Source: Qipengyuania vesicularis (lineage in GTDB: Bacteria; Pseudomonadota; Alphaproteobacteria; Sphingomonadales; Sphingomonadaceae). Taken from it: 64,000 nucleotides of DNA. The stretch spans positions 310,001-374,000 of the forward strand of contig NZ_JAIGNJ010000003.1 in NCBI RefSeq assembly GCF_019711415.1, written 5' to 3'. The position numbers were made by a program, and so were the translations under genes. This document shows positions 133 to 9,219 of this stretch, in pieces; positions within the stretch are counted from its first letter, which is position 1; every line of letters begins with the position of its first letter. Below the pieces are notes generated by a model, which saw nothing but the letters and a program-made list of their open reading frames with translations, was not told the DNA's origin and did not search any database.

Positions 133-1707
133 CTATTCCCACTCGATCGTGCCGGGCGGCTTCGAGGTATAGTCGTAAACCACACGGTTGATGCCCTTCA
201 CCTCGTTGATGATTCGCGTGGCCACGCGGCTGAGGAAGGCGGCGTCGAAGGGGTAGATGTCGGCGGTCATGCCGTCGGTGCTGGTAACGGCGCGCAGGGC
301 GCAGACGCTGTCATAGGTGCGCCCGTCGCCCATCACGCCGACGGTCTTGACCGGCAGCAGGACGGCGAAGGCCTGCCAGATCGCGTCGTAGAGGCCGGCG
401 TTGCGGATTTCCTCGAGATAGATGGCGTCGGCCTTGCGCAGGATGTCGCAGCGTTCCTTGGTGACCTCGCCCGGGATGCGAATTGCTAGGCCGGGTCCGG
501 GGAAGGGATGGCGGCCGACGAAGACGTCGGGGAGGCCGAGTTCGCGGCCGAGATCGCGCACTTCGTCCTTGAACAGTTCGCGCAGCGGCTCGACCAGCTC
601 CATGTTCATGCGCTCGGGCAGGCCGCCCACATTGTGGTGGCTCTTGATCGTGACCGAGGGCCCGCCGGTGAAGCTGACGCTTTCGATGACGTCGGGATAG
701 AGCGTGCCTTGCGCGAGGAAATCCGCGCCGCCGATCTTCTTCGCCTCGGCTTCGAACAAATCGATGAAGGCGCCACCGATGAACTTGCGCTTCTTTTCGG
801 GGTCGGTCTGACCTTCGAGGCCGCCGAGGAACATGTCCTCCGCATTCACATGGACGAGCGGGATATTGTAATGGTCGCGAAACAGGGTGACGACCTGTTC
901 GGCCTCGTTCATCCGCATGAGGCCGTGATCGACGAAGACGCAGGTCAGCTGGTCGCCGATGGCCTCGTGGATGAGGACCGCGGCAACCGCGCTGTCGACG
1001 CCGCCCGACAGGCCGCAGATGACCTTACCGTCACCCACCTGCGCGCGGATTTCCTCGATCTTGGTCTTGCGGAACTCGGCCATCGTCCAGTCGCCCTTGA
1101 GGCCGCAGACATGGCGTACGAAATTGGCGAGCAGCTTGCCGCCGTCGGGCGTATGGACCACTTCGGGGTGGAACTGCGTGCCGTAATAGCGGCGCTCGTC
1201 GTCGGCGATCAGCGCGAAGGGCGCGCCGGGGCTGGTGGCGACGATGCGGAAGCCTTCCGCGATGCGGGTGACCTTGTCGCCATGGCTCATCCACACCTGG
1301 TGCGTCTCACCCGGCTTCCAGAGGCCGTCGAACAGCACGCATTCCTCGGTCACTTCGCAAAAAGCGCGGCCGAACTCTCCGCCTTCACCGGTTTCGTGAC
1401 CGGGACGAACCTCGCCGCCCAATTGCTCGGTCATGACCTGCTGGCCATAACAGATGCCGAGGATCGGGACCTTGCTTTCGAAGATCACCTCGGGCGCGCG
1501 CGGACTGTCGCGGTCGGGCACGCTGGCCGGGCTGCCGGACAAGATCACGCCCTTTGGCCTGAGGCGATGAAATGCCTCTTCCGCCTGGGTGAAAGGGGCG
1601 ATCTCCGAGTAGACACCGGCTTCGCGCACGCGGCGTGCGATGAGCTGGGTTACCTGGCTGCCGAAATCGACGATGAGGATGGAATCGGGGAGGTGCGCGC
1701 TGTCCAT
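133..1707 (-). CDS. guaA: GMP synthase (glutamine-hydrolysing)
   Basis: Converts XMP to GMP using ATP and glutamine, the last step of guanine nucleotide synthesis, in the cytoplasm. From the ATG at 1707 ([10 protein letters not shown]) the protein has 524 residues, the usual size; a longer in-frame start at 1767 would add 20 unconserved residues. An N-terminal class I glutamine amidotransferase domain carries GICYGQQ with the nucleophile Cys86, and His180/Glu182 in FHPEVVHT. The ATP-pyrophosphatase P-loop SGGVDS is near residues 234-239, and the C-terminal dimerisation domain ends in KPPGTIEWE. The domain set is complete with no sign of damage. A partial secreted-protein gene follows after 8 bases. 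Confidence 0.97.
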
Positions 1708-1770
1708 GCGGGCGGCGTTAGAATTGCCGGGCCACACTGTCCAGCCACGCGCACATGCTCCCAACACCCA

Positions 1771-1793
1771 CGCGCCGACGCATCACCGGCGCG
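1771..1793. terminator. GC-rich stem-loop between the TIR cassette and guaA
   Basis: A perfect 7-bp inverted repeat CGCGCCG / CGGCGCG (1771-1777 and 1787-1793) encloses a 9-base loop. It lies just past the stop codon of the last cassette gene (1815) and upstream of the guaA start (1707), where transcription from the cassette would need to end. No T-run follows on either strand, so it is not a standard intrinsic terminator. It could equally lie in the guaA 5' leader. Function inferred. Confidence 0.35.
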
Positions 1794-1814
1794 CGGGTAT
1801 TTGGTCATTGCATC

Positions 1815-2150
1815 TCAGCCGTTGACGCGGTCGCGGATGACGGGATCCCAGACCATGGGATTCTGCTGGCCGGCCCTGGTGAACCGCAGCTGGTACTTGT
1901 GCTCGGGGATCCGGCCGCGGTCTTGCTCACTATCGTACACCTGGAGTTCGGAGCCCGAAGTGCGGGTGATGGTGAAGTCGGTGGGGTTCGTTATGATAAT
2001 CGGCCGATCCTCGTCGAACACCCATCCATGCCCGCTATTGTCCTGCAGCGTGAAGACGATGTTGTTGCTTGTGTCGGGCGTCACCGGGTCCGGCGATGCC
2101 GAGACATCGTCATTGGCATCGATCGTTATCGTGCAAGCTCCATCTGTCAT
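1815..2150 (-). CDS. Small beta-rich protein, last gene of TIR-TPR cassette (unknown function)
   Basis: A 111-residue protein starting MTDGACTITIDANDD, preceded by a purine-rich ribosome site (AAGGAAGGAA). I do not recognise a named family. It has no signal peptide or membrane segment and is rich in alternating hydrophobic/polar stretches (NIVFTL, PIIITN, FTITR, KYQLRF), suggesting a beta-sandwich fold. Its C-terminus, KYQLRF..G....MVWDPVI, resembles the end of the 184-residue protein at 4440-4994 (KYSFVV..G....LIEDPKI). The two are therefore probably distant paralogues or share a domain. It sits 111 bases after TIR-TPR gene B on the same strand, mirroring the pairing of the other copy. A role as partner or ligand of the TIR-TPR protein is inference from position only. 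Confidence 0.6.
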   Translation of the reverse strand: MTDGACTITIDANDDVSASPDPVTPDTSNNIVFTLQDNSGHGWVFDEDRPIIITNPTDFTITRTSGSELQVYDSEQDRGRIPEHKYQLRFTRAGQQNPMVWDPVIRDRVNG

Positions 2151-2261
2151 TTCGAATTCCTTCCTTCACATTTCAATGCGCGGCGGAATGCCACTTCGGC
2201 CCGTCCCCTGATTGCTTCAGGTGTTGCTCCTTTGGTCTGCTCTTGCTGTTATTCCTTGGTT

Positions 2262-4307
2262 TCAGCTCCTCGTGCCGAGCATGTCATCGATAATGGGATC
2301 GATCCCGAGCTTCCTCAGACGCTGGCGGATCGCTTCTGCATCCCCAGTCCGACCCATTCGCTCTGCCGCTGCAGCCCGCAGTGCAAGCGAGCGCACGTCG
2401 ACCCTCTCGCCCTCGGCATCTGGATAGGAAAATGCCTTGGAGAAGGATTCCCGCGCCGCTTGTCGATCGCCTTCGCGTTGCGCTGCCAGCCCGGCGAGGA
2501 GGTAAGAAGCCACATGGAGCCATTCGTGTTCGGGGTTCGCGCGGTCCAAGCGCGAGAGCCATCGGTTGGACAAGGCGCGCAGGGCAGCGGGGCGGGAATC
2601 GAGCTGGTCGGTGAGCGCGCGGTACATGGCGAGCTCGCCCGGACTGGTCACATTCCAGTCGTGATTCTTAGGATCTCGTTCCTGCAGCGACGCCTGCAGT
2701 TCCTCCGCCCTTGAATACAGGTCTCTTGCAAGTTTCGCATTGCCATCGGACCAGGCGATCAGCGCGCGATCGCGCAATGCGCCGCGAGCCAGTTCCTTGA
2801 CCAGAGTGTCTTCGGGATCGGCAGCGATCTGCTCCTCGGATTCGCGGATCGCCTCCTCCAGGATCCGGTCGGCATCCCGCTTGCGGCCTTTCAGGGCGAG
2901 GATCCTTCCCAGGCTGCTTATCGCATACATCCGCGCGCGGCGCGCTTCGTTGTGCCCTGGTTCCTCGGCGATGATCCGATCGTAGATCTCGATCTCTGCC
3001 CTTCGGGTTTCCTCGGCTTTCTCGACTTCTCCAAGAAGCACCTGGGTGGTCGATATCCAGGAATGTGCCTCGCCGAACTCCTTGCGTCTGGCGCTCGGAT
3101 TGCCTTCGGCGCGAGCGACGGCGCCGGTCATGTCCTTGCTCCGTTCAAAGAGATCCAGAGCGCTGCGCAGCTTGCCTTCCTCGAAATCCATCGTTCCGAG
3201 ATTGCTCAGCGAATAGGCTTCTTCCATCTGCCATTCGAGATTGTTGCGGTCCATCGCAGCCAGCCTGGAGGAGATGTCGGCATAGCGCTCCATCGCCGAA
3301 CGCGCCTCTTCCATCTTGCCGTGTTGCCAGGCGACGTAGCCGACCCAGAACAGGCTTTGACCGTGATTGAACAGGCGTTCGGGATCGTCCGGCTTGCGCG
3401 CCAGCAATTCTTCCGTCGTACGCGCGGCCTGCTGGAAAGCGGGGAGCGCGCCTTCGTTGTCGCCGCGCAGGTTCTGGACCTCGGCGACCAGCTGCACGGC
3501 TCTCACACGCCGCCCCAGTTCGCTCGCCGACAGGTCTTCCAGCTTCTGCCGGGCATAATAGTCCATCGCCCGGTTCCCGACCCCGTCGAGGAGGTCGAGC
3601 CGCCCGACCGGCTCCAGCTGCTGGCGCAGGTCGGTGAGCATGTATTCGATCAGCCCGTCGGCCTCTGCCCGCTGCTCGCGCGCATCGTTGCGCTGATCGA
3701 TGGCGAAGAGGGCAAGTCCTGATGTGCCGACCATGCCCACCACCGAGGCGGCAGCCACGAGTGCGAGGCGTCGCTGCCTTCGCGCCGCATCGCGCTGGAC
3801 CAGCCCGTCGAGGTCGACGCCGGCAAGGCCGGCAACGAGCTTGAGCTTGCCGAGCTTGCGGCCGTCCGCATGTCGCCGGAGGTCTGCCGCAATCGGCTCT
3901 GCCGCTTCGTCGGTCGGTTCGCCATTCTCGTAGCGCTGGAGGAGAGGGGCGGGGAAATTGCCCGGGGGATCACCCTCGACGATGACCGGGAAGACCGCAT
4001 GATCGCCGTTGATCCGCTTGTAGAGGTCGACCTCGCGCGCGATCCAGGGTGACTGTGCTGCGGCAGGCGAGCACAGGACGATCAGCGCGTCGCTGCATCG
4101 GATCGCCTGCTCGATGGCCTCACCGAGGCTGTCCGCCGCGGGGAGTTCTTCCCGGTCCTTGAATATCGGGTGCAGCCGGGCGGGCTTGCCCTCGGCCACG
4201 GCCTTGGGCGGCAGCCTGTAGGTTTCCAGCGCAGAATGCAGCCAGTTCGCGATCCGCTTGTCACGGTGCGAATAACTGATGAATGCCCTGTATCGCCGAT
4301 CGGCCAA
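2262..4307 (-). CDS. TIR domain-transmembrane-TPR protein (copy B)
   Basis: From a TTG start at 4307 the protein has 681 residues. Residues 4-110 form a bacterial TIR domain (YRAFISYSHRDKRIANWL, FKDREELP, CSDALIVLCSP, SPWIAREVDLY); Glu92 lies where NAD-hydrolysing TIR domains keep their catalytic glutamate. A basic RRQRR stretch and one membrane helix (about 181-203) follow, then a helical C-terminal half with TPR-like repeats (DNEGALPAFQQAARTTEELL, YSLSNLGTMDFEEGKLRSAL). By the positive-inside rule the TIR domain is cytoplasmic and the TPR half periplasmic. The TTG is preferred because it is preceded by GGAGAG at good spacing and matches the start of copy A. A longer frame from 4394 exists. 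The function is unknown; sensing/signalling or NAD-based defence is inferred from TIR proteins generally. Confidence 0.8.
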   Translation of the reverse strand: MADRRYRAFISYSHRDKRIANWLHSALETYRLPPKAVAEGKPARLHPIFKDREELPAADSLGEAIEQAIRCSDALIVLCSPAAAQSPWIAREVDLYKRINGDHAVFPVIVEGDPPGNFPAPLLQRYENGEPTDEAAEPIAADLRRHADGRKLGKLKLVAGLAGVDLDGLVQRDAARRQRRLALVAAASVVGMVGTSGLALFAIDQRNDAREQRAEADGLIEYMLTDLRQQLEPVGRLDLLDGVGNRAMDYYARQKLEDLSASELGRRVRAVQLVAEVQNLRGDNEGALPAFQQAARTTEELLARKPDDPERLFNHGQSLFWVGYVAWQHGKMEEARSAMERYADISSRLAAMDRNNLEWQMEEAYSLSNLGTMDFEEGKLRSALDLFERSKDMTGAVARAEGNPSARRKEFGEAHSWISTTQVLLGEVEKAEETRRAEIEIYDRIIAEEPGHNEARRARMYAISSLGRILALKGRKRDADRILEEAIRESEEQIAADPEDTLVKELARGALRDRALIAWSDGNAKLARDLYSRAEELQASLQERDPKNHDWNVTSPGELAMYRALTDQLDSRPAALRALSNRWLSRLDRANPEHEWLHVASYLLAGLAAQREGDRQAARESFSKAFSYPDAEGERVDVRSLALRAAAAERMGRTGDAEAIRQRLRKLGIDPIIDDMLGTRS

Positions 4308-4351
4308 GCTTGTCTCTCCGAATGCGACCTCGGAAAACGACTCGGCAACCC
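4305..4351 (-). promoter_or_regulatory. Conserved leader and TTG start region of TIR-TPR copy B
   Basis: The 44 bases before the TTG contain the 17-base block GGGTTGCCGAGTCGTTT (4351-4335), identical to the leader of copy A, followed by a near-identical GG(T)CGCA..CGGAGA and the start AGC-TTG-GC. The two leaders differ by single-base gaps that put the block in different reading frames relative to the downstream gene. The conservation is therefore of nucleotides, not of an extended protein. It contains the ribosome site GGAGAG and may be a regulator or RNA-structure element. Seen directly; role inferred. Confidence 0.5.
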
Positions 4352-4358
4352 CTTCTCG

Positions 4359-4377
4359 TTGCGAAAGAATGTCGCAA
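4359..4377 (-). promoter_or_regulatory. Inverted repeat upstream of TIR-TPR copy B
   Basis: TTGCGA (4377-4372) and TCGCAA (4364-4359) form a perfect 6-bp inverted repeat with a 7-base spacer, 52 bases upstream of the TTG start. A possible promoter overlaps it: TTGCGG, 17 bases, then CATTCT (4371-4366). It could be an operator. The match to a promoter consensus is weak. Confidence 0.3.
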
Positions 4378-4439
4378 ACTCGCCTTTGCCGCAACTTTGT
4401 TCGCCAGGACGGCCCTAGGCGAAGTCGTTCGCGGGCCCG

Positions 4440-4994
4440 TCAGCTGTTGGCGTTGGTGCCGGGAGGTGGGGCGCCAATCGGCTTGTGGCGAGGCTTGCCG
4501 GGAGCCATGCGCGGCTTGATGGTCTTGTTGATGATCTTCGGATCTTCGATCAGCAAGGCGCCGCCCCCGATCTCGAGATGGACCACGAAAGAGTATTTGT
4601 ATCTCTTGTCGAGGTCGTTCCTGTCCTTGAGGGTCAGCGAGCGCTTCGCAGGCCCGTCGGGCACGGTGATGTCGTGGTCTCCGTCGGGCGGGGCCTTGTC
4701 GCCCTCGCCAGGCTCGCTGTCTTCTCCGGGCAAGACCCAGATGCTGTCGTTGTGAGGCGTGCAGTAATACGCTTCATAAAGCGCATCATCGATCTCCACC
4801 GCGTCGGAGACCCAGTTGAATGTTATCGCAAGATCATCGGGCGCCTTGAACGCGTCGATGTTCCCGTTCTTCTTCACATAGATCTCCTCCAGCGGCTCGA
4901 CCTGCTGGAAGTGGAATTTGCCCTTGTAGGTAGGATGGTTCTTCCTCTTCTTCACCTTCGTCACCGAGACGTTCACTGTGACATTGGTCGTCAT
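4440..4994 (-). CDS. Small beta-rich protein between the two TIR-TPR genes (unknown function)
   Basis: A 184-residue protein (MTTNVTVNVSVTKVKK...) with a very strong ribosome site, AGGAGAGGAAA, directly before the ATG, 29 bases after TIR-TPR copy A; the two are almost certainly co-transcribed. There is no signal peptide or membrane helix. It has beta-strand-like segments, an acidic, Gly/Pro-rich linker near residues 90-108 and a Pro/Lys-rich tail (KPRHKPIGAPPPG). Its region around KRYKYSFVVHLEIGGG and IEDPKIIN resembles the C-terminus of the 111-residue protein after copy B. I do not recognise the family. The tight coupling suggests it works with the TIR-TPR protein, for example as a sensor, ligand or inhibitor; this is inference. 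Confidence 0.65.
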   Translation of the reverse strand: MTTNVTVNVSVTKVKKRKNHPTYKGKFHFQQVEPLEEIYVKKNGNIDAFKAPDDLAITFNWVSDAVEIDDALYEAYYCTPHNDSIWVLPGEDSEPGEGDKAPPDGDHDITVPDGPAKRSLTLKDRNDLDKRYKYSFVVHLEIGGGALLIEDPKIINKTIKPRMAPGKPRHKPIGAPPPGTNANS

Positions 4995-5023
4995 TTTCCT
5001 CTCCTCTATTAGCGGTTTCGCGA

Positions 5024-7051
5024 TCAGCTGAGGGGCAGCCGATCATCGTACGAGGGGTCGATCTTCAGCTCTGCCAGCCTGCCCCTCAGCTGGCTTGCAA
5101 GCGCGGTCTGGCCAATGCGCTGGGCGGCAACCGCCCTGAGCGAAGTGGCCCCGATACTGTCGGTCTCGATGGAAATGGCGCGGGCGTAGGCGGCCGCCGA
5201 CCCTGCCCGGTCGCTTTCCCGCGCAAGGGCTGTCCCGTGGAGGAAATGGGCCGCCACGATCAGCAGCTGATGCCTTTCACGATTGGGGTCGAGCAGGCCG
5301 AGCCACTTGGCAGCCAGCCGCTTCATTCGCGCCGGCGCCATGGCATTCCTGTCGGTGAGCGCACGGGTCAGTTCGAGCGAGGCACGTGTGTCGATTGCCC
5401 AATCCTGGTTTTCCGGGTCCCGTGCCGTGAGGTCGGCGAGCAATTGCTCGACCCGTTCGAAATCCTCGGTGGCGCGACGGTCGAGACCCCGCCTCCAGTA
5501 ATGGCGCGCCCTTTCGGCGTAGACCGTGATGGCCATTTCGGTGGTGACCGTATCGTTCGGGTCCCGTTCGCGCAGGAGGCGGGCGAGCCGGGCGGCATCA
5601 TCGAATGCCATGCGCGCTTCACGGTCTCGCCCGAACAGAGACATCAGCCAGCCCAGACGACCCTTGGCAAACAGGGCGGCCTGCTGCGCCTCGCTATTGC
5701 CGGGGTCTTCCGCGAGCACCTCGTCGTAGAGAGCGATCTCCTCGCGGCGCGTCTTGGCCGAGCCCTCGAAGTCGAACAGTTCCTGGCGCGTTGTGGCGAC
5801 CCAGCTGAGGCCCAGCCCGAGCTCGACCAGCAGGTTCGCCGGACGGCCCTCTTCTTCCGCCACGCGGCGGGCGATCGCGACGCTCTTCTCGAACAGCGGC
5901 AGGGCGTCCTCGTGCCTTCCCTCATCTCCTGCCAACGTGCCGAGGTTGGAAAGGGCATAGGATTCCTCCAGCTGCCAATCGAGATTGGTCGGATCCATCG
6001 CCGTGAGCCGCGATGAAATGCGTGCATATTCCTCCAGCGCGGTCCGGGCGGTTTCGTTCTCGCCGCGCTGCCAGGCGATGTAGCCGACCCAGAATTCGCT
6101 CTGGCCATGCGCGAAGAGGGCATCGGGATCGTCGGGATTGCGGGCGAGGAGTTCGCCGGTCGTGCGCGCCGCTTCGCGGAATGCAGGGAGCGCCTGCTCG
6201 TTGTCGCCGCGGCGATTGTGCATTTCGGCGACCAGTTGGACCGCGCGGGAGCGGCGCGCGAGTTCGTCGGTCGTGAGGTCTTCGAGGCGCTGGCCTGCGT
6301 AATAGTCCATGGCCCGTTCGCCGACTGTGTCGAGCAGGTCCAGCCGGCCGACCGGTTCCAGCTCCTCGCGCAGGTCGGTGAGCATGAATTCAATGAGGCC
6401 GTTGGCCTCACCGCGCTCGGCCCGTGCGGTGTCGCGCTGCTGGATCGCATAGAGAGCAAGGCCGAGCGCAAAGACCATGCCGATGAAGAAGACCCCGGCA
6501 ATGATCGCCATCCGGCGATGGCGTTCCTGTCCGTGGCGGTCGACCAGCTCGTCGAGCGGGACGCCGGTGAGGCCCGCGACCAGCTTCTGCACGCCCAGCT
6601 TGCGCCCGTCTTCATCGGGCCTGAGATCGGCCGCGATCGGTTCGGCGAGTTCCTCCGTCGGCGTGCCGTCCTCATAGTGGACCAGCAGCGGCGGCGGCAT
6701 GTTGTAGGGTGGATCGCCATCGACCACTGCGGGATAGACGCGCGCATCGCCGTTGAGGCGCTTGAACAGGTCGATCTCCTTCGCGATCCAGGGCGAGATC
6801 GCCGCATTGGGCGAACACAGGACTATGAGCGCGTCGCTGTTTGCCAGCGCCGCCTCCAGCTCGGCGCCGAGATTATCGGAGGCAGGCAACTCCTCGCGGT
6901 CCTTGAAGATCGGGCGGATCCCACTGCGGAAATCTGGCAGGTCGATCCCTGCCGGCAGCCTGTAATTCTCAAGCTGGCGGTGCAGCCACTCCGCGATCCG
7001 CTTGTCGCGATGCGAATAGCTGAGGAATGCCTTGTAGCGCCGTGCAGCCAA
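5024..7051 (-). CDS. TIR domain-transmembrane-TPR protein (copy A)
   Basis: Starting at TTG 7051 the protein has 675 residues. It aligns to copy B without gaps over the first 210 residues, about 60% identical by hand count. The TIR domain (YKAFLSYSHRDKRIAEWL, FKDREELPASDNLG, NSDALIVLCSP, SPWIAKEIDLF) keeps the putative catalytic Glu92. A single membrane helix lies at about 181-203 after a basic stretch. The C-terminal half is helical with TPR-like repeats (DNEQALPAFREAARTTGELL, YALSNLGTLAGDEGRHEDAL). The in-frame start at 7171 adds 40 residues not shared with copy B, whereas the shared leader puts GGAG 7 bases before the TTG. It is the first gene of the cassette. Bacterial TIR proteins often degrade NAD or make signalling nucleotides in phage defence; that role is inferred here. 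Confidence 0.8.
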   Translation of the reverse strand: MAARRYKAFLSYSHRDKRIAEWLHRQLENYRLPAGIDLPDFRSGIRPIFKDREELPASDNLGAELEAALANSDALIVLCSPNAAISPWIAKEIDLFKRLNGDARVYPAVVDGDPPYNMPPPLLVHYEDGTPTEELAEPIAADLRPDEDGRKLGVQKLVAGLTGVPLDELVDRHGQERHRRMAIIAGVFFIGMVFALGLALYAIQQRDTARAERGEANGLIEFMLTDLREELEPVGRLDLLDTVGERAMDYYAGQRLEDLTTDELARRSRAVQLVAEMHNRRGDNEQALPAFREAARTTGELLARNPDDPDALFAHGQSEFWVGYIAWQRGENETARTALEEYARISSRLTAMDPTNLDWQLEESYALSNLGTLAGDEGRHEDALPLFEKSVAIARRVAEEEGRPANLLVELGLGLSWVATTRQELFDFEGSAKTRREEIALYDEVLAEDPGNSEAQQAALFAKGRLGWLMSLFGRDREARMAFDDAARLARLLRERDPNDTVTTEMAITVYAERARHYWRRGLDRRATEDFERVEQLLADLTARDPENQDWAIDTRASLELTRALTDRNAMAPARMKRLAAKWLGLLDPNRERHQLLIVAAHFLHGTALARESDRAGSAAAYARAISIETDSIGATSLRAVAAQRIGQTALASQLRGRLAELKIDPSYDDRLPLS

Positions 7052-7093
7052 GCTCCTTCTCCGTTTGCGACCACGGAAACGACTCGGCAACCC
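7049..7093 (-). promoter_or_regulatory. Conserved leader and TTG start region of TIR-TPR copy A
   Basis: Contains the same 17-base block GGGTTGCCGAGTCGTTT (7093-7077) as copy B, then CCG.GGTCGCA, a GGAGAAGGAG ribosome site and the TTG start at 7051. A possible promoter lies further upstream (TTGCGC at 7136-7131, TACAAC at 7117-7112), but its 15-base spacing is short. The shared block indicates common regulation of the two copies or recent duplication of promoter plus gene. Confidence 0.5.
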
Positions 7094-7559
7094 ACTGTTT
7101 TTCGGCAAGGTTGTAGCACAGATGCATAGCGCGCAACCGCCTCCCCCGGAGAGAGAGCGCCAAGAGGCCATGCCTCACTTGCGCAGAACGCAACAAAGCC
7201 TGACCTTTTCTCACTTTAGTTCAGTGATTGGCAACATTATTACAAGCCTCACAGCCGACGCGGGATGTCCCTCCCAATCTACTCCCCGCCGGCAACGAGA
7301 TGGCGACAGTCCCTCCTCCAAGCGAGCCTGTCGTCGCCTTCCTCCGGGCCAGCGGCCCAGCAATGCTGATCCTGCGACTCTCCTGACGCAGGTGGCGGCT
7401 CCCCCGGAGGCGATATGGCAGCGAGTAGAGACGCGGCCGCCGACACCTCCTCTCCCCTCCCCCTAGTGTCGGGGTCGCGTCTCGAACCGCCGCCGAGCGC
7501 GTGTAACCTTCGCAAAGCTACGCGCGTATCTTCTTGCGCAAACACGTAAGGAACCTCTC
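7094..7559. other. Gene-poor region upstream of the TIR cassette
   Basis: About 470 bases between the start of TIR-TPR copy A and a 27-codon frame. The first part (about 7200-7255) is AT-richer than its surroundings and may carry the cassette promoter on the minus strand. The middle part shows no convincing coding sequence on either strand; an 88-codon minus frame at 7279-7545 has no family features. The last part contains the long stem-loop at 7428-7483. Nothing else recognisable. Confidence 0.5.
7428..7483 (+). other. Long stem-loop with CU-rich, anti-Shine-Dalgarno-like loop (candidate sRNA)
   Basis: GAGACGCG (7428-7435) pairs with CGCGTCTC (7476-7483), GCC (7436-7438) with GGT (7473-7475, one G-U), and CCGACAC (7440-7446) with GTGTCGG (7466-7472). 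This makes an 18-bp helix with one bulged G at 7439. The 19-base loop is almost pure C/U and contains CTCC, CCTCC and CCCCT. Alphaproteobacterial sRNAs with CCUCC-type loops are known to target ribosome sites. No T-run follows on either strand, so it is not a simple terminator. Transcription and strand are inferred; plus is chosen because of the loop sequence. Confidence 0.4.
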
Positions 7560-7643
7560 ATGAGCACACTCTTTGGCCGGATGGCCGTTCTCATCTTCGC
7601 GACTGGCCTTTCGGGCATGATGCTGTCGCCGGCATTCGTCTGA
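7560..7643 (+). CDS. Possible 27-residue hydrophobic peptide
   Basis: An ATG at 7560 with AAGGA 7-8 bases upstream opens a 27-codon frame ending in TGA: MSTLFGRMAVLIFATGLSGM followed by MLSPAFV. Most of it is one hydrophobic segment, so the product would be a small membrane peptide, or the frame could be the remnant signal peptide of a decayed gene. It lies 77 bases downstream of the stem-loop and converges with the ligase gene ending at 7678. No family recognised; existence as a gene rests only on the ribosome site and composition. Confidence 0.3.
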   Translation: MSTLFGRMAVLIFATGLSGMMLSPAFV

Positions 7644-7677
7644 TCCCATTCGCGATCGATACCCGGCAGGCCGAGGC

Positions 7678-9219
7678 CTAGCCGGGCATCCCAAGCCGCG
7701 CAGCCTCTTCGCGGAGCTCGCTCTTGAGCAGCTTCCCGATATGGCTGCGCGGCATTTCCATTATGGGCGCAAGCGCAGCTAGCCGCTGGGTCTTGCCGAG
7801 CCGCGCATTGACCGCATCGCGCACCTCTTCCGCTTCGCGCCCGCCTTCGGCCAGCCGCACGAAGCCGACCGGCGTCTCGCCCCACTGGCGCGACGGCATT
7901 CCGATCACGGCAGCTTCGAGTACATCCTCCTCTTCGAGCAAGGCATTTTCCAGGTCGACCGGATAGATGTTGAATCCGCCCGAGATGATCATGTCCTTGG
8001 CGCGGCCGACCAGTTCGACGAAGCCCTCTTCGTCCACCCGCCCGATATCGCCCATGCGCTGCCACACGTCGCCCGTTGCGGGATCGGTCCAGTACCCCTC
8101 GCGGGTCTGTTCGGGCCGGTTCTTGTAGCCGCTCATCATCGTATGGCTGCGGCCGATGAGGTTGCCCGGTGTACCGGGTTCGACCGGGCGATCCTCGTCG
8201 TCGAGCACCCTCAGTTCGCTACCCGGCGCAGGCCTGCCCACCGTGTGGAGCTTGTCGGGGAATTTATGCGCTTCGAGCAGACAGACGACGCCCCCCTCGG
8301 TCATCGAATAGATCTCGATCAGCGCGCCCGGCATGCGGGCAAGAACCTCGCGCTTGAGCTCGGCCGAGAAAGGTGCGGAAGTGCAATATTTGAGCACCAG
8401 CGAAGAGAGGTCGAACTCCTCGAAGCGCGGCTCGTCCATCAGGCGCTGGTATTGGACCGGGACCAGCATGGTGATGGTGCTGCGGTCGGATTGCGCGTGG
8501 TCGAGCCAGCGCATGCAATCGAACTTGCCCATCACCCGCACCGTGCCGCCCGCAAGCAGCGCGGGCAGGAAGGCGACCATCGTGGTGTTCGAATAGAGCG
8601 GGGTCGAGGCAAGGGTGCGCACCTCCAGCCGAGCCTCGAGCCAGCTCGCCGCCGTAACCGCGAATTGCCGCCAGCGCATCTGATGAGAATGAACGATGCC
8701 CTTGGGCGTACCGGTCGTGCCCGAGGAGTAGATGATATTGAACGGGTCGGAGGGCTGGTGCTCGACCGCGGGAGCCGTGGTTCCCTCAGGCGCCATCCAC
8801 TCATCCAGTTCCTCGTCGAGCACGATGCGGGTCAGGCCGGGGAAGCAATCCTCGCCCAGTTCGGCAAGCTTCGCCCGGTCGATGAAGATATGCGCCGCCC
8901 CCGAATCCTGTGCCATGCCCGCGAGCTGGTCGGCGCTGGCGCTGGTCGTGAGCGGAGCAGCCACGCCGCCCGCCCGCACGGCTGCGAGGAACACCAAGGC
9001 GTAGGCCACGCTGGAATAGCCAAGGATTGCGACCGACTGGCCGCGCTCCAGCCCATCTTCGAGCAGGCGGGCAGCGACGCGCTCCACCCGGTCACCGAGC
9101 TCGGCCCAGCTGATCTCACCACCGTCATCGCGCATCGCGATCCGGTCGGGCTGGCTCTCAGCCCAATTCGCCAGAATCTGCGGGAACGAGCCGAATGCGG
9201 CCTGCAAATTCTCAAGCAT
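7678..9219 (-). CDS. AMP-binding acyl-CoA synthetase (fatty or aromatic acid-CoA ligase)
   Basis: A 513-residue member of the ANL superfamily, which activates a carboxylic acid with ATP to an acyl-adenylate and transfers it to CoA. The P-loop-like motif YSSGTTGTPKG lies in the first third, GYKNRPEQT and the hinge/A8 region GGFNIYPVDLENALLEEEDV in the last quarter, and the A10 lysine in SHIGKLLKSELR near the C-terminus; all are intact. There is no N-terminal targeting signal. The ATG at 9219 follows GGGGAGAG. It lies 27 bases after the marR gene and is probably the last gene of the nitroreductase-marR operon. The substrate cannot be read from the sequence; an aromatic or medium-chain acid is a reasonable guess given the regulator. 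Confidence 0.85.
   Translation of the reverse strand: MLENLQAAFGSFPQILANWAESQPDRIAMRDDGGEISWAELGDRVERVAARLLEDGLERGQSVAILGYSSVAYALVFLAAVRAGGVAAPLTTSASADQLAGMAQDSGAAHIFIDRAKLAELGEDCFPGLTRIVLDEELDEWMAPEGTTAPAVEHQPSDPFNIIYSSGTTGTPKGIVHSHQMRWRQFAVTAASWLEARLEVRTLASTPLYSNTTMVAFLPALLAGGTVRVMGKFDCMRWLDHAQSDRSTITMLVPVQYQRLMDEPRFEEFDLSSLVLKYCTSAPFSAELKREVLARMPGALIEIYSMTEGGVVCLLEAHKFPDKLHTVGRPAPGSELRVLDDEDRPVEPGTPGNLIGRSHTMMSGYKNRPEQTREGYWTDPATGDVWQRMGDIGRVDEEGFVELVGRAKDMIISGGFNIYPVDLENALLEEEDVLEAAVIGMPSRQWGETPVGFVRLAEGGREAEEVRDAVNARLGKTQRLAALAPIMEMPRSHIGKLLKSELREEAARLGMPG

Follow-up and report, generated by a model that had tools for sequence, protein, structure and literature searches.

The question raised by this locus is what is done by a gene pair that stands there twice over: a gene for a protein with a TIR domain, one putative transmembrane (TM) helix and tetratricopeptide repeats (TPR), followed by a gene for a small protein. 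The stretch that we analyzed (the window) covers 64,000 nucleotides of the 2.7 Mb genome of Qipengyuania vesicularis (G000:C3:310001-374000), whose closest named relatives in a homologue search are Qipengyuania and an Erythrobacter metagenome-assembled genome. On the minus strand the order is TIR-TM-TPR protein A, a protein of 184 amino acids (aa), TIR-TM-TPR protein B, a protein of 111 aa, and guaA; re-reading of the open reading frames (ORFs) confirmed the frames and the gene order given in an initial annotation of this DNA. Both small proteins carry an Asp-Pro pair near the C terminus and are referred to here, with their relatives, as DP proteins. The features of the two units, in window positions, are as follows.

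5024..7051, minus strand: TIR-TM-TPR protein A (675 aa, TTG start, stop included)
6557..7051, minus strand: TIR domain of A (Trp88 and Glu92 invariant in 45/45 aligned proteins)
6452..6508, minus strand: single hydrophobic helix of A (residues about 182-200)
5069..6436, minus strand: predicted TPR superhelix of A (residues 206-661), first part conserved, last part divergent
4440..4994, minus strand: 184-aa partner of A, a DP protein and predicted beta-sandwich (ORF, model and fold match)
4539..4544, minus strand: Asp151-Pro152 of the 184-aa protein, in the motif I-E-D-P-K-I-I-N
2262..4307, minus strand: TIR-TM-TPR protein B (681 aa, TTG start, stop included)
3813..4307, minus strand: TIR domain of B (Pfam and alignment)
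3705..3761, minus strand: single hydrophobic helix of B (hydrophobicity)
2265..3692, minus strand: TPR half of B (Pfam TPR matches)
1815..2150, minus strand: 111-aa partner of B, a short DP protein (cluster profile reaches DP-EP at 84.5%)
1842..1847, minus strand: Asp102-Pro103 of the 111-aa protein, in the motif W-D-P-V-I-R-D

The favoured starts of A (7051) and B (4307) are TTG codons with a purine-rich stretch upstream, and the DP partner begins 29 nt after A and 111 nt after B.

Pairing of TIR-TPR genes with a downstream partner

Relatives of the window units came from three draws: 19 contig loci, 65 of 249 family genomes and 21 of 299 phylum genomes, the last by a TPR-module search (loci carry L numbers and genomes G numbers). 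The TIR genes were split by a profile of the TPR module (A4) that was built blind to the partners and that left a score gap between 122.6 and 24.9 bits; the two window proteins score 294.9 and 303.1 bits. Distinct genes with the module (class 1) number 66, of which 64 have at least 500 readable downstream bases, and distinct genes without it (class 2) number 21, of which 20 are readable. A DP protein lies directly downstream of 53 of the 64 class-1 genes, a presumed His-Pro (HP) variant of 6 (L027, L114, L120, L124, L126 and L127) and neither of 5. Behind class-2 genes there is no DP partner (0/20); a looser pattern matched one short, probably spurious ORF behind L136. The TIR-TM-TPR plus DP layout thus exceeds chance (53/64 versus 0/20), and the small proteins adjoin TIR-TM-TPR genes in Alpha-, Beta- and Gammaproteobacteria, as expected from the earlier proposal that they are conserved neighbours.

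These counts comprise 39 strict and 14 loose scripted matches (9 DP and 5 HP), plus 5 DP and 1 HP added by hand: the script overlooked ORFs whose frame opens far upstream, and L013, L034, L035, L038, L047 and L027 (HP) were resolved by hand. Partial or broken TIR genes (L016, L018, L019, L020 and L022), a duplicate (L028) and genes with less than 500 nt downstream (class-1 L014 and L117, class-2 L140) were left out, and ten weaker matches, eight from the family-genome draw and two from the phylum draw (G306 and G371), lie outside the count. A DP partner is present also at the excluded L016, L018, L020 and L022, with DP-motif ORFs at L019. The DP pattern was derived from the partner proteins themselves and was hence tested on other ORFs: 39 of the 46 partners carry its strict form within their final 60 residues, as do 4 of 679 non-partner ORFs with 100-280 codons, and three of these four look like further DP proteins (at L017 and L019). 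Direct searches among the 249 genomes found the 184-aa protein in two (the genome studied here and G078, both beside TIR) and the 111-aa protein in three (this genome; G077, beside TIR; and G234, a short weak match); matches are few because the small proteins diverge fast.

Gene content varies at some loci. In Sphingomicrobium lutaoense two DP proteins, one of the 111 type and one of the 184 type, come after a single TIR-TM-TPR gene (L007:8074-9029), and at L032 the TIR gene precedes two tandem DP proteins, the first with a C-terminal membrane helix. The TIR-TPR gene of Sphingomonas sediminicola is split into two frames beside an intact DP partner (L018:5896-8113).

The class-2 genes have a partner of their own. 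A protein with a PEP-CTERM end follows 14 of the 20 readable genes (10 by pattern, L003 through its longer copy L148, and L135, L137 and L139 by inspection); L134 is cut at the motif, L129, L130, L132 and L149 have neither partner, and L143 received no call. Nine of ten scanned class-2 partners pass NCBIfam PEPxxWA-CTERM, and the tenth passes TIGR02595. The third TIR-TPR gene of the genome studied here belongs to this class (G000:C1:16500-20600, L148, the pair itself at about 16.7-19.8 kb; 35% identical over residues 2-404). Its downstream partner begins like a signal peptide and has a PEP-CTERM end, and the genome also encodes an exosortase (113.7 bits, cut-off 105.55). The class-2 layout likewise consists of TIR, membrane helix, TPR and one downstream partner, but its TPR half lacks the conserved module and its partner has about 345-420 aa and a PEP-CTERM end. 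The PEP-CTERM pairing is consistent with a TPR half outside the cytoplasm.

Domains, folds and relatives of the paired proteins

A and B match Pfam TIR_2 (PF13676) at 56.2 and 59.7 bits (cut-off 28) and ThsB_TIR at 32.3 and 35.7 bits (cut-off 21.2). Glu92, kept in all 45 aligned TIR proteins, aligns with the glutamate of the W-x-x-x-E stretch in the TIR structures 9m0n, 3jrn and L6, which we take to be catalytic. Family score and conserved glutamate are consistent with an NADase-type TIR domain, whose NAD+ hydrolysis is putative. The AlphaFold2 model of A comprises a TIR domain, a long low-confidence helix (166-201) with a hydrophobic stretch and a TPR superhelix (206-661); its blockwise pLDDT (per-residue model confidence) is 63-87 as far as about residue 280 and mostly above 90 from about 280-290 on. 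One hydrophobic helix, at about residues 182-200, separates TIR from TPR, and positive charge is greater on its TIR side in most relatives, but not in A itself. B exceeds two Pfam TPR cut-offs and A none; the TPR model of A resembles the peptide- and partner-binding TPRs of LGN, RapI and NprR. The NADase-type glutamate, the single membrane helix and the TPR half named in the initial annotation are thus all recovered, the TPR half by Pfam for B and by the modelled superhelix for A. Over residues 2-672, A and B share 54% identity, with 65.5% in the TIR domain, 67% in the first TPRs and 37% in the last.

The model of the 184-aa protein (mean pLDDT 88.6) has an all-beta core, so that the earlier description of the partners as beta-rich holds for this one. 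In Foldseek it matches SO1698 of Shewanella oneidensis (E 1.9e-4), and VIA-align 2 aligns 118 of 122 residues with Z 10.9 and rmsd 3.1; the next-best other family reaches Z 8.5, and the PixA and MakD folds are also near (Z 8.5 and 8.4). The 184-aa protein is thus predicted to have the SO1698 fold. With 12.9 bits it misses the cut-off of the SO1698 family in Pfam (DP-EP, PF08985; 25 bits), a weak match that is insufficient alone and is upheld by the fold search; the 111-aa protein has no match. Neither small window protein matches PF20301 (pNTSase1; gathering threshold 25 bits). A SPATA48 Pfam match of the 184-aa protein was too weak and was dropped, and Cadherin and PrtH matches of the partner profile (E 0.036 and above) were put down to chance resemblance among beta-sandwiches. 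A search for PixA genes found none in 120 genomes and gave no signal anywhere, so that no conclusion is drawn, and a search for pNTSase1, run without a positive control, found none in 240 genomes of the class.

The most constant feature of the partners is their tail. They end in Asp-Pro-x-Ile/Val-x-Asn/Asp or nearly so, and the C-terminal Asp-Pro is present in 31/31 proteins of a joint alignment with DP-EP; across 41 aligned partners Pro152 is the sole invariant residue, and Met1, Pro34 and Asp151 reach 90%. Profile comparison, in which no reversed control profile exceeded 20%, links the 184 cluster to the 164 cluster (98.8%), to a lipoprotein cluster (87.4%), to DP-EP (83.8% over 48 C-terminal columns) and to the 111 cluster (just 53.6%), and the 111 cluster to DP-EP (84.5% over 102 columns).

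PDB titles call SO1698 (the DP-EP protein) an aspartic peptidase. In structure alignments its aligned range ends at residue 116 in the wild type and in Y26F, K98A, P115A and Q118A and reaches 123 in D37A, S114A, D116A and P117A, as would be expected if the chain were cut at D116-P117. In the two small window proteins Ile or Val stands in the place of Ser114; around Asp37 the alignment is uncertain, and that position varies even within the DP-EP set. Because Ser114 is lost and Asp37 variable, we do not class the window proteins as self-cleaving peptidases; cleavage at the Asp-Pro bond may occur but is probably not a general feature.

DP-EP family members likewise follow the TM-TPR module. DP-EP genes occur in 9 of 99 genomes of one order of the phylum (10 genes, two tandem in one genome), and at all nine loci, selected by DP-EP, the gene directly upstream encodes a protein of 1,051-1,112 aa. 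Two of these proteins were scanned with Pfam and contain Trans_reg_C, nSTAND1 and TPRs, and the other seven look alike by eye; five of the nine winged helix-turn-helix (wHTH)-nSTAND1 proteins align with the TIR proteins in the TM-TPR module. Selection by the TPR module gives a DP-EP gene in five of seven wHTH-nSTAND1 genomes (G406, G436, G263, G398 and G603, the first four overlapping with the nine loci); in G608 and G487 there is none within 600 bases on the same strand as the wHTH-nSTAND1 gene. Distant nSTAND1 versions with a TIR or DUF4062-like start (L104-L108, of which L104 and L106 were domain-scanned) have no DP gene where readable. L104, L105 and L108 encode TIR-nSTAND1-TPR proteins with a distant TPR module (L104 scanned, the others by eye). 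A PAS-GGDEF diguanylate cyclase gene lies beside several wHTH-nSTAND1-TPR/DP-EP pairs (L071:2046-3140, scanned; L057, L058 and L062, by eye).

Because wHTH-nSTAND1 proteins with the same module precede DP-EP, the DP partner appears to track the TM-TPR half and not the TIR domain, and because TIR and wHTH-nSTAND1 versions both pair with DP proteins, TM-TPR plus partner seems to be a sensing cassette whose outputs can be swapped. We tentatively suggest a modular cassette in which a TM-TPR receptor half and a fast-evolving DP beta-sandwich ligand serve swappable outputs (TIR or wHTH-nSTAND1), with SO1698-type DP-EP proteins as ligands and the Asp-Pro tail as trigger, an idea more apt to be wrong than right.

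Several known systems resemble the window units in part. The SO1698/DP-EP proteins (PF08985; PDB 3n55, 3njf-3njn) share the beta-sandwich and the Asp-Pro near the C terminus, but the window proteins fall below the Pfam cut-off, lack Ser114, have other lengths and accompany a TIR output, not a wHTH-nSTAND1 output. Relatives of about 540 aa are TIR-TM-TPR proteins that often have a partner of the pNTSase1 (PF20301) type and sometimes a TPR-S-like (PF20308) gene in the row, whereas the window proteins have no PF20301 match, and the 184-aa partner is SO1698-like. There is no TPR-S gene beside the window units, whose neighbours are guaA and an AMP-binding ligase gene. A TPR-S gene comes next after the partner at L013:8552-10351, where it is fused to an adenylate/guanylate cyclase domain, and at L100:98-2047; a TPR-S-like sequence pattern, which misses L013 and which many loci are too short to show, goes with 6 of 34 class-1 genes below 640 aa and 0 of 32 longer ones. 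Burroughs and Aravind reportedly predicted in 2020 that TPR-S and pNTSase1 belong to conflict systems. The initial annotation knew of no described system with this layout, which was too strong a claim, since PF20301 covers one partner cluster and TPR-S adjoins two relatives.

The window TIR domain is also related to ThsB_TIR of Thoeris, but the window proteins have a membrane helix and a TPR half, and no Thoeris effector gene is adjacent; NCBIfam Thoeris NF058526 gives 14.6 and 17.7 bits, far below its cut-off of 220, and PADLOC returned weak TIR matches alone (best SAVED-TIR model, 25-29 bits). The best TIR match in the PDB is 9m0n/9umd (824 aa, named tetratricopeptide repeat protein; 1.4e-05), which has an N-terminal TIR domain, but the alignment is confined to the TIR part. 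Among the matches listed from the open-licence literature we found no paper on 9m0n/9umd or on the gene layout of the window units, nor the SO1698 link, the shared wHTH-nSTAND1 version or the PEP-CTERM sister class. These last three may be new; part of the partner set was already known in Pfam as pNTSase1.

A variable slot beside guaA

The two units lie between conserved flanking genes, as follows.

133..1767, minus strand: guaA (GMP synthase), one conserved flank of the slot
7678..9219, minus strand: AMP-binding ligase gene, the other conserved flank
1745..7178, no strand: 5.4 kb block absent in sister genome G239, where guaA adjoins the ligase gene

A unit occupies the same guaA-ligase slot in L004-L006 and L008-L011 and lies beside guaA in L007. 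In G239, whose guaA is 99% identical, the slot is empty, and window positions 1589-1744 and 7179-9113 map to bases 2-156 and 186-2125. Elsewhere, the slot holds no unit (G146), a transporter-like gene (G198) or a transporter-like gene and one unit (G078). Identity to L005 falls from guaA (86%), ligase (85%) and TIR (82%) through the first TPRs (77%) to the last TPRs (46%) and the partner (32%). Thus the TIR domain and the flanks are conserved while the TPR end and the partner diverge fast, and the unit is gained or lost. The four other units that group with A are all of the 184 type, and those that group with B comprise two of the 184 type and two of the 111 type; because B's group mixes the two, partner type can change. 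Some 85 bases from the gap that separates TIR A from the ligase gene (window 7400-7500) have counterparts, 87-92% alike, near the same slot of three sister genomes; the 101-bp stretch is single copy in the genome, and a dispersed repeat was rejected.

Proposed mechanism and rival explanations

We propose that each unit is a membrane-anchored TIR receptor with a dedicated DP partner bound by its TPR half, a reading to which we give an even chance. The TIR domain would be the cytoplasmic output, linked by the membrane helix to the TPR superhelix, to which the small DP beta-sandwich would be bound. The TPR-DP complex would change upon a cue (infection or damage to the envelope being the likeliest), TIR domains would be brought together, and the clustered domains would consume NAD+ or make a signal, so that growth stops. 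The conserved C-terminal Asp-Pro tail may be the piece read by the TPR.

Several observations weigh against this proposal. The single helix that separates the TIR and TPR halves would place the TPR in the periplasm, and a crude hydrophobicity scan with inspection detects neither signal peptide nor TM helix in 40 of 46 DP partners (L017 added by eye; partners of L099-L128 outside the scan). The other six comprise three lipoprotein-like proteins (partners of L016, L017 and L022), one with an N-terminal and two with a C-terminal helix; a signal peptide was seen by eye in the DP-EP copy L068. Because most DP partners lack an export signal, TPR and partner may occupy different compartments: either some partners use a different export route, or the TPR lies elsewhere than in the periplasm, or the two meet only upon membrane failure. 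Also, five class-1 genes have no partner (L024, L029, L103, L122 and L128), the HP variants were found by a loose pattern and their homology to DP proteins is presumed, and partner type does not strictly follow TIR clade. Profile comparison ties the PF20301 cluster to just one other cluster (52.5%) and, above 20%, not to that of the window proteins, and it ties the lone partners L013, L020 and L045 to no cluster above 20%. Finally, 50,697 phage records gave no match, viral contigs just two weak TIR-only matches, and four plasmid records match; a mobile defence island is unsupported by these searches.

The same receptor-partner architecture may serve surface signalling or the homeostasis of the envelope rather than phage defence, with the TIR domain making a regulatory signal. 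The occupied slot beside guaA in 8/8 closest loci (L004-L011) and in G078, the lack of a phage link, the transcription-factor output of the sister version and the PEP-CTERM partner of the TIR-TPR sister class all fit such a role, whereas the patchy presence, with absence from G239 despite its near-identical guaA, and the fast divergence typical of conflict genes do not; we consider it a serious possibility, if one that falls short of even. Overlaps or few-base gaps between the genes at many loci, together with a small, fast-evolving partner that is usually single per TIR gene, recall a toxin-antitoxin pair, in which the DP protein would be a labile inhibitor binding the TIR toxin directly, and its loss would free the NADase. 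DP-EP, however, also pairs with TIR-less wHTH-nSTAND1-TM-TPR proteins, the TIR domain is conserved whereas partner and TPR end diverge, and TIR genes without the TPR module have a different kind of partner, and such a pair therefore seems unlikely.

Two further readings give the small protein an activity of its own. It might be a self-processing switch that cleaves itself between Asp and Pro; the released tail, or else the new terminus, would bind to the TPR and set the state of the TIR domain. The SO1698 fold match, the mutant-dependent chain ends of SO1698 and the 31/31 conservation of Asp-Pro speak for this, but the replaced Ser114 and the variation of Asp37 within DP-EP make it improbable. 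Alternatively, it might be an enzyme whose nucleotide product signals to the TIR-TPR protein, a role implied for one partner cluster by its Pfam name, pNTSase1 (predicted novel nucleotide synthetase). PF20301 is matched by 8 of 41 partners at E up to 0.5 (best 1.1e-65), its cut-off is passed by five of ten partners picked mostly from one cluster, and TPR-S genes follow in two relatives, once fused to a cyclase domain. Against it stand the missing PF20301 matches in the window, the SO1698-like all-beta sandwich modelled for the 184-aa protein and the few conserved residues among the 41 partners, so that we think it very improbable; this case is limited to the window proteins, because the PF20301 cluster has no profile link above 20% to theirs.

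If the receptor-and-partner proposal is true, the DP-EP proteins (SO1698) would gain a role, a TIR effector and a transcription regulator would be tied to a common sensor, and a simple two-gene TIR receptor would have a known partner. It would also suggest that many bacterial TIR-TPR proteins are receptors for a dedicated protein, either DP or PEP-CTERM, and what they sense would become directly testable.

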